Shown here in pieces: positions 44,895-52,041 of a stretch of DNA of 64,000 nt. Below the pieces are notes generated by a model that had not been told where the DNA came from, did not search any database, and saw only the letters and a list, made by a program, of their open reading frames with translations. Within the stretch, counting starts at the first letter, position 1. Each line of letters begins with the position of its first letter. Source of the DNA: Bdellovibrio bacteriovorus W (lineage in GTDB: Bacteria > Bdellovibrionota > Bdellovibrionia > Bdellovibrionales > Bdellovibrionaceae). Made by a program: the position numbers and the translations under genes. The stretch covers positions 1-64,000 of the forward strand of contig CP002190.1 of NCBI GenBank assembly GCA_000525675.1, in the 5' to 3' direction.

Positions 44895-46355
44895 TTGCCC
44901 ACATCTTTTTCTGAAGCTTACAAAGACTTTAAAGAGTCCTCATATACTGCGATCATTAGTGACCTGCACCTTACAGAGGCTGAACCCCTGCATCCGAAAT
45001 ATCCTTTATGGAAAAAATTTAAGACAAAAGAATTTTTCTTTGATGATACGTTTGCAGAATTTCTAGATTATCTTGAAAAAAAGGCTGAAGGAAATCCTGT
45101 CGAGTTGATTCTCAACGGTGATATTTTCGATTTTGATAGTGTGCTCAACTTACCGGAAGAACCTGTTTTTCGCGTGAGCTGGCTTGAAAAGCATCGCGGT
45201 CTCTATCCAAGAGAAGAGCGATCTCGACATAAAATTGAAGTTATTCTTAGAGATCATCCTATCTTTGTAAAAGCGATTCGTGAATTTGCTTTAAGAAACA
45301 ATCGAGTTATTTTTGTGATGGGCAATCATGATTTGGAACTGCACTTTTCTGCCGTTCAACATGAGATCATGAAGAGCCTGGATTTACCGCCGTCGGCGCG
45401 AGGTCAGGTCCGCTTTGTGGAATGGTTTTACATCAGTAACCAAGACACCCTGATTGAACATGGCAATCAGTACGATCCTTATTGCATGTGTGAAGATCCC
45501 GTGAACCCATATGTGCGTGGTTATAATTATATTTCTTTGAAGCTTCCCTTTGGGAATTTAGCCTGTCGTTATATTTTAAACGGCATGGGATTTATCAATC
45601 CCCATGTGGATTCGAATTATATTATGACGTTGCCTCAATATATTCGTTTCTTTTTTAAATATATGGCGAAGGCTCAGCCGGGTTTGGTATTTACGTGGTT
45701 TTGGGGATCGGTAGTTACTCTCTTGCATTCATTCTTTGACCGCCTCGCTTCTCCAATTCGCAATCCTTTAAAGATAGAAGATCGCGTTGCAGAAATCGCC
45801 TTGAAGGCCAATGCTGAGCCAAGAATGGTTCGAGAGTTGAAAGAACTTTTTGTCGCGCCAGCGGCGAGCAGTCACTTTCTCTTAGCCCGGGAGTTGTGGC
45901 TAGATCGCGCCTTTTTAATTTTCATTTCATTTTTCTTAATCTTTCAGGCCATGGTTTTTATTCGCTCCGTGTACTCGGTTTCATTTTTCTGGGCGTTTAT
46001 TCCACTGTTTCTTTTATTGCCATTCTTTCTTTTTTACAGCAAGTCCGTGACCTCGTTGGTTTCTGGTTACAAAGAGCCCGATGATCGAGTCCTGGCTATG
46101 GCAAGTGCCATCACTAAAGTGAATCGCATTGTTTTTGGTCACACACATCATGTTCGTCATGAGATAATCGGTTCGGTGGAGCATCTCAACAGTGGTTGTT
46201 GGTCACCGGCATTTTTGGATGTGGAATGTACGCAGCCACTTGATCAAAAAAACTACGTCTGGATTTCTCCTGCTGATGGAGGACAAAGACAGGCAGAGCT
46301 GTTGCAGTTTATGGACGGGAAATCGGAGATACAGAAAACATCTAAAAATGCATAA
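44895..46355 (+). CDS. Membrane-associated metallophosphoesterase
   Basis: A 486-aa calcineurin-like phosphoesterase. The metal motifs are in order: SDLHL, NGDIFDF, MGNHDLELHF, a histidine in EHGNQYDP, and GHTHHVRHE. Two transmembrane helices at about residues 335-385 interrupt the domain before the last motif. LpxH-like UDP-diacylglucosamine hydrolases share these motifs but lack such an insertion, so the substrate is open. TTG 44895, 4 bases after GGGAGGA, is the start. It is divergent from murD and lies upstream of the histone gene. Confidence 0.85.
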   Translation: MPTSFSEAYKDFKESSYTAIISDLHLTEAEPLHPKYPLWKKFKTKEFFFDDTFAEFLDYLEKKAEGNPVELILNGDIFDFDSVLNLPEEPVFRVSWLEKHRGLYPREERSRHKIEVILRDHPIFVKAIREFALRNNRVIFVMGNHDLELHFSAVQHEIMKSLDLPPSARGQVRFVEWFYISNQDTLIEHGNQYDPYCMCEDPVNPYVRGYNYISLKLPFGNLACRYILNGMGFINPHVDSNYIMTLPQYIRFFFKYMAKAQPGLVFTWFWGSVVTLLHSFFDRLASPIRNPLKIEDRVAEIALKANAEPRMVRELKELFVAPAASSHFLLARELWLDRAFLIFISFFLIFQAMVFIRSVYSVSFFWAFIPLFLLLPFFLFYSKSVTSLVSGYKEPDDRVLAMASAITKVNRIVFGHTHHVRHEIIGSVEHLNSGCWSPAFLDVECTQPLDQKNYVWISPADGGQRQAELLQFMDGKSEIQKTSKNA

Positions 46356-46442
46356 TATTGCGGCGCAAAAAGTTTTCATATTGTCAATCACAGGACCCTA
46401 TGCAAACCTTTTAGTGTTAAAAACACACGGATGGAGAATGAA

Positions 46443-46637
46443 ATGGCAGACGTACTTGTAGTAACTAGCAAAGTAAAAAAACTCATCAAAGAAAAAGGCG
46501 AAATGAACACTTCCGCTGAAACTATTGACGTGCTTAGCAAGGCTATTGAGCAACTATGCTTAAAAGGTGTTGAAAGCGCTAAAGCGGATGGCCGTAAAAC
46601 AGTAATGGCTCGTGATATCGTTATCGATCACCTTTAA
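46443..46637 (+). CDS. Bacterial histone (HBb/Bd0055-type histone-fold protein)
   Basis: A 64-aa protein that is almost entirely one histone fold: helix 1 (KVKKLIKEK), loop, long helix 2 (SAETIDVLSKAIEQLCLKGVE), loop with GRKTVM, and helix 3 (ARDIVIDHL). The GRKTV-x-x-x-DI pattern matches archaeal histones and the B. bacteriovorus histone Bd0055, which is abundant in that organism and forms a DNA-binding dimer. GGAG at 6-base spacing selects ATG 46443 over ATG 46431. It is a single gene with its own terminator, directly after a metallophosphoesterase gene and convergent with ligA, and is likely a chief nucleoid protein. Confidence 0.93.
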   Translation: MADVLVVTSKVKKLIKEKGEMNTSAETIDVLSKAIEQLCLKGVESAKADGRKTVMARDIVIDHL

Positions 46638-46667: not shown

Positions 46668-46695
46668 AACCCACCTTGCGAGGTGGGTTTTTTGT
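46668..46695. terminator. Terminator shared by the histone gene and ligA
   Basis: AACCCACCT and AGGTGGGTT form a 9-bp stem around TGCG, followed by TTTTGTTTT. It lies between convergent genes; the strong T-run serves the histone transcript. Confidence 0.93.
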
Positions 46696-46696
46696 T

Positions 46697-48715
<2,019 letters not shown>

Positions 48716-48847: not shown

Positions 48848-49129
48848 GTGATCGACAAAAGTCAAATCGAGCATATTGCAAATTTAGCTCGACTAAAAAT
48901 TTCAGAAGAAGAAGCTCAGTCCTATAGCGAGCAACTAAGTAAGGCTTTGGCACACTTTGAAAAAATCAGCCAAGTACCAACAGAGGGCGTAGAGCCTCTT
49001 GTGACACCAACAGAAATTGAAGCTTTCTGGCGCGAAGATGAAGTTCAAAAAGAATTCACGGCAGAAGAAATGTTACAGAACGCGCCTTCACGCGTTGGCA
49101 ATCTATTTAAAGTGCCACCGGCAATTTAA
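48848..49129 (+). CDS. gatC: Aspartyl/glutamyl-tRNA amidotransferase subunit C
   Basis: GatC is the small subunit that stabilises GatA in the amidotransferase converting misacylated Asp-tRNA(Asn) or Glu-tRNA(Gln) to the correct form. The 93 aa include HIANLARLKISEEEAQSYSEQL and the C-terminal RVGNLFKVPPAI, both typical. It uses a GTG start with AAGGGG upstream. It is the first gene of gatCAB, 141 bases from divergent ligA. Confidence 0.94.
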   Translation: MIDKSQIEHIANLARLKISEEEAQSYSEQLSKALAHFEKISQVPTEGVEPLVTPTEIEAFWREDEVQKEFTAEEMLQNAPSRVGNLFKVPPAI

Positions 49130-49148
49130 TTTTTGGGAGTGATCTAAC

Positions 49149-50621
49149 GTGGATTTAACACACGCATCTATATCTGAAATCGCAGAAGCTGTTCGATCAA
49201 AAAAGGTCAGTGCCAAAGAAGTTGCGCAGCACTTCAAGGGCCGTATTGAGACTTTGGATAAGCAGTTAAACTCATTCACAACAATCAATGAGAATGCTTT
49301 AAAAGAAGCTGAAATTATCGACGCTAAAATAGCAAAAGGTGAAAATGTGGGGGCTCTTGCGGGAGTTCCTTTCGGCCTTAAAGAAATGTTTTGCACGAAG
49401 GGTCTACGCACGACTGCTGGATCGAAAATGTTAGAAAACTTTGTTCCACCTTATGACGCCACAGTTGTTAAGCGTCTCAAGGATGCGGGCATCGTTATTA
49501 TGGGAAAACTTAATCAAGATGAATTTGCAATGGGCTCTTCAAACGAGACCTCATATCATGGGGCTGCAAAGAATCCGTGGAATCTTGATTGTGTTCCTGG
49601 AGGAAGCTCAGGTGGTTCTGCCGCTGCACAATCAGCACGACTAGTTGCTGGAACTTTGGGAACTGATACGGGTGGGTCTATTCGTCAACCGTCTAACTTC
49701 TGCGGTATTGTAGGAGTGAAGCCTACATATGGCCGTGTGAGCCGTTATGGTATTGTTTCTTATGCTTCTTCATTGGATCAAGCTGGTCCGATGGTAAGCA
49801 CTGTGAAAGATGCCGCACTTACAATGGAAGTGATTTCAGGTTTTGACGAAATGGATTCTACGACCAGTCAAAGAGCAGTTCCTCAGTGGAGCAAAGATTT
49901 AACTGCGAACGTTAAGGGATTGAAAATCGGCTTGATGAAGGAATACTCGTCAGCGGGAATTCACCCTGACGTGCAAAAAACTGTAGATAAAGCTGTAGAG
50001 ACTTTGAAATCTATGGGTGCAGAAATTATCGAAGTTTCTGTTCCGTTAGTAGAACACGCCGTACCGGTTTATTATTTGGTTTCAGCTAGTGAAGCCTCTT
50101 CTAACTTAGCAAAGTATGATGGTGTCAAGTTTGGTTACCGTGCAAACTTTGAAAATCTATCAGCTATCAGCCTTGATGAATTCTATGGAAGAAATCGTGG
50201 CGAAGGATTTGGCTCTGAAGTTAAACGTCGAATCATGTTGGGAACATATTGTCTTTCCGCAGGATCTTATGACGCTTACTTTAGAAAAGCAGGACAAGTG
50301 CGCCGCTTGATCACAAATCAATTCATGGATGTATTCTCAAAGTGTGATGTTGTCCTAAGTGCTGTGACAACGGCGCCAGCATTTAAAATTGGCGAGCGCT
50401 CTTCAGATCCATTGACGATGTACTTGAATGACATCTTCACGACTTCGACGAATTTAGCAGGTCTGCCAGGAATGAGCGTTCCTTTTGGAATGTCTGAGCA
50501 AGGCTTGCCAATCGGCGTGCAGCTGACGGCGGGTCACTTTGAAGAACAAAAAATGCTGAATGTTGCTTGCGCTCTTGAGGGTGCTTCAGACGTGAAAGGA
50601 AAGCGTCCACATGTTATATAG
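49149..50621 (+). CDS. gatA: Aspartyl/glutamyl-tRNA amidotransferase subunit A
   Basis: GatA hydrolyses glutamine to supply ammonia. The amidase signature is present: the catalytic lysine in FGLKEMFCTKG, and the Ser-cisSer-Lys triad motif VPGGSSGGSAAA with GTDTGGSIRQPSNFCG. The 490 aa are normal. The start is GTG with GGGAG nine bases before. It overlaps gatB by 11 bases in a tight operon. The presence of gatCAB indicates indirect synthesis of Asn-tRNA, Gln-tRNA or both. Confidence 0.97.
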   Translation: MDLTHASISEIAEAVRSKKVSAKEVAQHFKGRIETLDKQLNSFTTINENALKEAEIIDAKIAKGENVGALAGVPFGLKEMFCTKGLRTTAGSKMLENFVPPYDATVVKRLKDAGIVIMGKLNQDEFAMGSSNETSYHGAAKNPWNLDCVPGGSSGGSAAAQSARLVAGTLGTDTGGSIRQPSNFCGIVGVKPTYGRVSRYGIVSYASSLDQAGPMVSTVKDAALTMEVISGFDEMDSTTSQRAVPQWSKDLTANVKGLKIGLMKEYSSAGIHPDVQKTVDKAVETLKSMGAEIIEVSVPLVEHAVPVYYLVSASEASSNLAKYDGVKFGYRANFENLSAISLDEFYGRNRGEGFGSEVKRRIMLGTYCLSAGSYDAYFRKAGQVRRLITNQFMDVFSKCDVVLSAVTTAPAFKIGERSSDPLTMYLNDIFTTSTNLAGLPGMSVPFGMSEQGLPIGVQLTAGHFEEQKMLNVACALEGASDVKGKRPHVI

Positions 50622-52041
50622 AGGTTATGAAGCTGTTATTGGTATCGAGATCCACGTTCAACTAAGTACAGCAACAAAGATGTTCTGCGCAGATTCGACA
50701 GCGTTCGATGCCGGAGATAATGAAAATACATCTCCGATCAGCGTTGGTATGCCAGGGACGCTGCCGACGTTAAACAAGAAGGCAGTAGAGTATTCAATCA
50801 AGACCGGTCTTGCATTGGGCTGTGAAATTCGCAAAAAATCCGTATTTGCGCGTAAGAATTATTTCTATCCAGATTTATCCAAGGGTTATCAGGTTTCTCA
50901 ACACGATGAACCTATCTGTGAAAATGGCTCCGTGACTTTTAAAGTCGACGGTGTTGAAAAGACTGTAACTATTTCTCGTGCTCATATGGAAGAAGATGCG
51001 GGTAAATCAAATCATCATGGTGAATACACGCTGATCAATTATAATCGCGCGGGAATTCCTTTGCTTGAGATTGTGACGGGACCAGATCTACGAACTCCAG
51101 CAGAAGCGGCCGAGTACGGTCGTACGATTCGTCAGATTGTGCGTTACTTGGATGTTTGTGATGGAAACCTCGAAGAGGGCTCTATGCGCTGCGATTGCAA
51201 CGTCTCTGTTCGTAAGCCAGGCGAAAAATTTGGAACAAGAGTAGAGATTAAGAATATCAATTCCTTTAGATTCGTTGAAAAGGCGATTGAGTTTGAAATT
51301 GATAGACAGATTGATGCTATTGAATCAGGTGAAAAGATCAATCAAGAGACTCGACTTTGGGATCCAGATAAAAATCGCACCGTAGCGATGCGTGCAAAAG
51401 AAGATGCTCAAGATTATAGATATTTCCCAGAGCCAGATCTTATGCCTGTCATTGTGACAGAGGCGATGCTTACTAAATATCGCAATGAACTGCCTGAGCT
51501 TCCAAGAGCGCGTGCATTTAGATTTCAAGAGTCCCACGGACTTCCAGAATATGATGCTTTAGTTTTAACTGCAGAAAAAGCTTTGGCTGATTTCTATGAA
51601 GAGACTGCAAAGGTATCTGGAAACTTCAAAGCTTCTTCAAACTGGGTGATGACAGAAGTTCTTCGTGAATTAAATCAGGCGAACCTAGATGTTTTAAGCT
51701 CCCCTATTAAGCCGGCGCAGCTTGGACAGATGATTGCCTTGATTGATAAAGGAACGATCTCTGGAAAGATTGCAAAGACTGTATTCCTTGAAATGTGGCA
51801 ATCAGGAAAAGATCCTGAGGTTATTGTTAAGGAAAAAGGTCTTGTACAGATTTCTGATCCGGCAGCGATCGAGAAAATTATCGATGAAGTCTTAGCAGCC
51901 AACGCGCAAAACGTTGAAGATCACAAAACGGGTAAGAAAAAGAATCTTTTTGGATTCTTTGTTGGTGCTGTGATGAAAGCTTCTAAGGGTCAGGCGAATC
52001 CCGAGCTTGTGAACAAGATTCTTTTGGAAAAATTGAAGTAA
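50611..52041 (+). CDS. gatB: Aspartyl/glutamyl-tRNA amidotransferase subunit B
   Basis: GatB binds the misacylated tRNA and phosphorylates or activates the carboxylate. It begins YEAVIGIEIHVQLST and has the characteristic LPTLNKKAVEYSIKTGLALGCEI, ARKNYFYPDLSKGYQVSQ and EEDAGKSNH. A C-terminal helical YqeY-like tail ends the protein (KGQANPELVNKILLEKL). The 476 aa are typical. Its stop overlaps the ppx/gppA start (TAATG). Confidence 0.97.
   Translation: MLYRGYEAVIGIEIHVQLSTATKMFCADSTAFDAGDNENTSPISVGMPGTLPTLNKKAVEYSIKTGLALGCEIRKKSVFARKNYFYPDLSKGYQVSQHDEPICENGSVTFKVDGVEKTVTISRAHMEEDAGKSNHHGEYTLINYNRAGIPLLEIVTGPDLRTPAEAAEYGRTIRQIVRYLDVCDGNLEEGSMRCDCNVSVRKPGEKFGTRVEIKNINSFRFVEKAIEFEIDRQIDAIESGEKINQETRLWDPDKNRTVAMRAKEDAQDYRYFPEPDLMPVIVTEAMLTKYRNELPELPRARAFRFQESHGLPEYDALVLTAEKALADFYEETAKVSGNFKASSNWVMTEVLRELNQANLDVLSSPIKPAQLGQMIALIDKGTISGKIAKTVFLEMWQSGKDPEVIVKEKGLVQISDPAAIEKIIDEVLAANAQNVEDHKTGKKKNLFGFFVGAVMKASKGQANPELVNKILLEKLK

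Follow-up and report, generated by a model that had tools for sequence, protein, structure and literature searches.

The closest described relative of the gene reported here is Bd0055 (HBb) of Bdellovibrio bacteriovorus HD100, an abundant, nucleoid-localised protein (PMC10627809) for which dimer formation, DNA binding and a failed deletion have been reported (PMC10627809, PMC11317129). Binding is nonspecific (PMC10627809, PMC11317129), being genome-wide and without specificity in DAP-seq (PMC11317129), and structures have been solved both free and DNA-bound (PDB 8FVX, 8FW7, 8CMP, 9EZZ and 9F0E). Two binding modes have been published. One is a straight-DNA filament, based on crystal 8FW7, the absence of FRET between DNA ends and a high stoichiometry (more than 60 dimers per 147 bp at saturation by ultracentrifugation), in which the N-terminal tail is exchanged between dimers (PMC10627809). 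The other, from a second group in 2024, is DNA bending by dimers, drawn from crystal, solution and simulation data, with DNA contacts at a helix-1 interface (T8, S9 and K10) and an L1-L2 interface (K12, T23, S24, A25, K52, T53 and R57), and N22 and K16 derived from simulation (PMC11317129). A second histone of B. bacteriovorus, Bd3044, has been described as the longer and the less conserved of the two (PMC10627809). Surveys and classifications that cover Bd0055 and its homologues exist already (PMC11390915, PMC12701072). The preliminary description of our locus, which called Bd0055 abundant and essential-like and its binding mode debated, agrees with this literature (PMC10627809, PMC11317129).

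The window, a stretch of 64,000 nucleotides from B. bacteriovorus W (positions 1 to 64,000 of contig CP002190.1), carries the following features around its histone gene:

44895–46355, plus strand: calcineurin-like metallophosphoesterase gene
46359–46367, no strand assigned: near-palindrome TGCGGCGCA, upstream of the −35-like hexamer and conserved in most of the genus
46381–46409, plus strand: promoter-like block TTGTCA-N12-TATGC-AAACCT, from an alignment of 25 upstream regions
46433–46436, plus strand: GGAG, Shine-Dalgarno-like, 6 nt before the ATG and kept ahead of the start in most of 63 orthologues
46443–46637, plus strand: histone-fold gene of 64 aa, orthologue of Bd0055/HBb (bacterial dimer histone), from the open reading frame, phmmer, Pfam, orthologues and structure model
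46668–46689, no strand assigned: hairpin with T-runs on both sides, seen in the sequence, its minus-strand form scored by a terminator tool
46697–48706, minus strand: ligA (NAD-dependent DNA ligase LigA), convergent with the histone gene

The histone gene runs from an ATG at 46443 to a stop codon at 46635–46637, and its 64 codons encode MADVLVVTSKVKKLIKEKGEMNTSAETIDVLSKAIEQLCLKGVESAKADGRKTVMARDIVIDHL. An alternative in-frame ATG at 46431 was ruled out, because the open frame of a related locus encoding the identical protein (L002) has only 65 codons and leaves no room further upstream. The product matches PDB 8FVX over its whole length (phmmer, E = 1.4e-34) and scores 23.6 bits against Pfam PF00808 (CBFD_NFYB_HMF; gathering cut-off 21.4), while its score against the NCBIfam archaeal histone model NF043032, 32.1 bits, is below the cut-off of 50. 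Between L002 and the window gene dN is 0.007 and dS 1.7, with dN/dS far below 1; synonymous sites are thus near saturation while amino acids have hardly changed, so that the conservation reflects selection rather than recent ancestry. By its phmmer E value, PF00808 score and low dN/dS, the open reading frame is not a chance frame. The preliminary description had proposed a tail-less bacterial histone homologous to Bd0055, made up of a histone fold only, with a GRKTV loop and a DI in helix 3, and this is borne out by the reading frame, the PF00808 match, the conserved orthologue and the motifs themselves (GRKTV at residues 50–54, RDI at residues 57–59). The protein is identical to Bd0055/HBb (chains 8fvx and 8cmp) at 62 of 64 positions by phmmer, E3D and Q20E being the sole differences; neither involves a basic residue or a published DNA contact.

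Structure prediction, which the preliminary description had suggested, gave a monomer model with a histone fold (AlphaFold, built from 40 related sequences, pLDDT 82.7) and helices at residues 3–19 and 25–48, followed by a three-residue helix at 56–58. HBb entries took the first five places among its PDB matches (E = 4e-8 to 3e-7), the best being 8FVX (TM 0.86), with HTkC and HLp coming after them. Two of the five models in the run were good and three were poor, so the case for the fold rests more on the 97% identity to solved structures than on the model. Within the alpha-3 histone family (Schwab et al. 2024) the window protein clusters with Bd0055/HBb among the bacterial dimer histones, and it has two further traits of that class: in the model helix 2 is shortened and helix 3 truncated, and the sequence carries the RKTxxxD motif and the conserved helix-1 lysines. 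The residues of archaeal tetramers are absent, as in Bd0055 (S45, A48 and I61; comparison with PMC10627809). S45 and A48 vary across 73 aligned orthologues, a variation that argues against a conserved tetramer contact at these sites.

Orthologues occur in 63 of 66 family genomes and align over all 64 codons without gaps at 64–100% identity (in genome G003, at position 49,361); the three genomes lacking one are G032 and G042, which are 67–72% complete, and G046, which is 90% complete. Among 80 named contigs, nearly all titled Bdellovibrionota or unspecific and some ending before the neighbour genes, the metallophosphoesterase gene precedes the histone gene on the same strand in 53 loci and convergent ligA lies downstream in 75, so that the order metallophosphoesterase, histone, convergent ligA is typical for most of them. 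The hairpin at 46668–46689 is a putative terminator common to the histone gene and ligA; on the plus strand, its T-run can be seen in the sequence, though the terminator tool did not list it. Beyond ligA the window continues with gatC, gatA and gatB (48848–52041), and gatC and gatA follow ligA in most related contigs. The same order of metallophosphoesterase, Bdellovibrio-type histone, ligA and gatCA was seen in a contig titled as a Streptomyces griseus metagenome-assembled genome (L087, CALQIT020000112.1), a title that, given the usual Bdellovibrio gene order, is probably a mislabel. No relative of the window histone was matched among 50,697 phage records.

Histone folds serve elsewhere in proteins of other function (CBF/NF-Y, Pfam PF00808), and the gene could in principle encode a non-chromosomal protein, such as a specific regulator of transcription or part of some other complex. 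We consider this very improbable: the gene has no fused partner and its constant neighbours are housekeeping genes, and Bd0055 is, as noted above, abundant, nucleoid-localised and bound throughout the genome without specificity. We are nearly certain that the window gene is the Bdellovibrio chromosomal histone HBb, with a general architectural role.

Upstream of the gene, the genus has kept the block TTGTCAat...gGACCC-TATGCAAACCTTTTA almost intact while the flanks of the block drift (25 upstream regions), and more distant family members keep TTGTCA, 12–13 nt, TATGn and nAnnnT. Of 62 upstream regions in the family, 46 contained this loose pattern, against a mean of 0.025 in single-base shuffles, a descriptive count, the pattern having been defined after the alignment was inspected. 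We read the block as a sigma-70-type extended −10 promoter with a weak −10 hexamer and 17–18 nt spacing (17 nt in the window), in which TTGTCA would be the −35 element, TATGN the extended −10 and nAnnnT the −10; a plain sigma-70 scan did not find it at 46381–46409. In its exact form the block is unique in the genome. As a general pattern it had four genome-wide matches against two in a reversed control, which gives no evidence of a regulon. The near-palindrome TGCGSCGCA lies about 15–20 nt upstream of the block in most genus members and is possibly a regulator site.

Searches of the 3.0-Mb genome by protein, Pfam and a ZZ-histone profile returned no second histone, and the sole match to the profile was the gene at 46443–46637, through its histone part only; with 64 aa and no N-terminal domain, the window protein lacks the zinc finger of the ZZ type. 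Bd3044-like proteins, by comparison, are about 160–170 aa long; a Cys/His-rich domain resembling a zinc finger forms their N-terminal part and is followed by a linker and the histone fold. They fit the ZZ histone class of PMC11390915, although a Pfam search gave them no zinc-finger match. Of the 24 genus genomes, 7 encode such a protein (loci L064–L070 in G003, G029, G035, G025, G009, G006 and G016). Since the other 17 lack one, we rejected the idea that losing the ZZ histone is peculiar to the window species. A tentative proposal, which we regard as doubtful, is that a promoter dedicated to this gene, and deeply conserved, adjusts together with the palindrome the amount of histone over the predatory cycle, perhaps via a specific regulator, and that HBb alone covers all histone functions in species lacking Bd3044.

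The preliminary description had expected a comparison of surface lysines and arginines with Bd0055 to be instructive. No K or R differs between the two proteins, and with just two differences, neither basic nor at a contact, the window protein alone cannot discriminate between binding modes; on the sequences, the value of that comparison was overrated, and the question of which basic residues are conserved was answered instead by the 73-sequence alignment. K10, K12, K13, R51, K52 and R57 are invariant in it, and K16 and K47 nearly so, while K18, K33 and K41 vary; within the RKTxxxD region (R51-K52-T53-V-M-A-R57-D58), T53 and D58 are invariant as well. Mean entropy was 0.12 bit at published contacts against 0.65 at other polar positions (one-sided Mann-Whitney P = 0.0015; 73 distinct sequences unweighted for relatedness, polar/core split defined in the present analysis), and in a family subset 9 of 12 contacts were strictly invariant (hypergeometric P = 0.026). 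K13, K47 and H63 are conserved, though outside the published contact list. By interface, means were 0.03 bit for helix 1 and 0.18 bit for L1-L2, and residues 2–4 were among the most variable (1.32 bit). Both published DNA interfaces are under strong constraint across orthologues, unlike the N-terminal tail that dimers exchange in the straight-filament crystal.

Conservation of the L1-L2 contacts is expected under both models, and just the helix-1 surface separates them. In the straight form, dimers would coat DNA as an end-on sheath through the L1-L2 edge only, held by dimer-dimer contacts and exchanged tails. The crystal, FRET and stoichiometry data speak for it, and the crystallised protein shares 62 of 64 residues with the window protein; simple bending does not account for more than 60 dimers per 147 bp (PMC10627809). 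Against the sheath, T8, S9 and K10, unused in its description, are as constrained as L1-L2, residues 2–4 and some acidic positions vary, and solution assays and simulations gave bent DNA (PMC11317129); we therefore judge it unlikely to be the working form. Because the helix-1 surface is as conserved as L1-L2 while residues 2–4 vary, the constraint pattern is modest and indirect evidence that favours, without proving, bending by dimers, and bending is in our view probably the mode in vivo. If the window orthologue behaves like Bd0055, as we infer, two HBb chains would form a handshake dimer that binds the DNA backbone at minor grooves with no sequence preference, through its L1-L2 surface and through the start of helix 1, the second contact being required if the DNA takes a bent path. 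HBb would then act as an abundant architectural protein whose dimers bend and compact DNA rather than build tetramers or hypernucleosomes.

Bacterial histones matter for chromatin evolution. The window gene is the orthologue of a well-studied protein, so that it is already known and its new content is incremental, adding little beyond Bd0055. Its protein is also one row in the alignment that shows the constrained surfaces, and its genome may be of use as a natural single-histone Bdellovibrio. Bd0055/HBb of HD100 shares its length, fold, every K and R, all published DNA contacts, the gene order and the promoter-like block; the two differ by E3D and Q20E, by the absence of a Bd3044 partner histone here and, as the preliminary description had stated of an AT-richer species, by GC content (42.0% in the window against 50.5% in HD100; PMC11317129). 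The Bd3044-like ZZ histone has a similar C-terminal histone fold (about 40–58% identical over the aligned part) and differs in its N-terminal Cys/His-rich domain, linker and greater length. HLp (Leptospira perolatii, 9QT0), which wraps about 60 bp of DNA (PMC12701072), and HTkC (Thermococcus kodakarensis, 9F2C) share the short helix 2, one-turn helix 3 and RKT motif and are the next-best fold matches, 9F2C also by sequence, whereas these closest solved members of the face-to-face class, whose torus-like tetramers assemble through residues of helix 3 and the C-terminal part of helix 2, are just 36–39% identical to the window protein and form tetramers. Archaeal HMfA and HMfB, weak matches by sequence (E = 0.08–0.5), share the histone fold and the RKT...D motif; in them helices 2 and 3 are longer, the tetramer residues are present and hypernucleosomes form.
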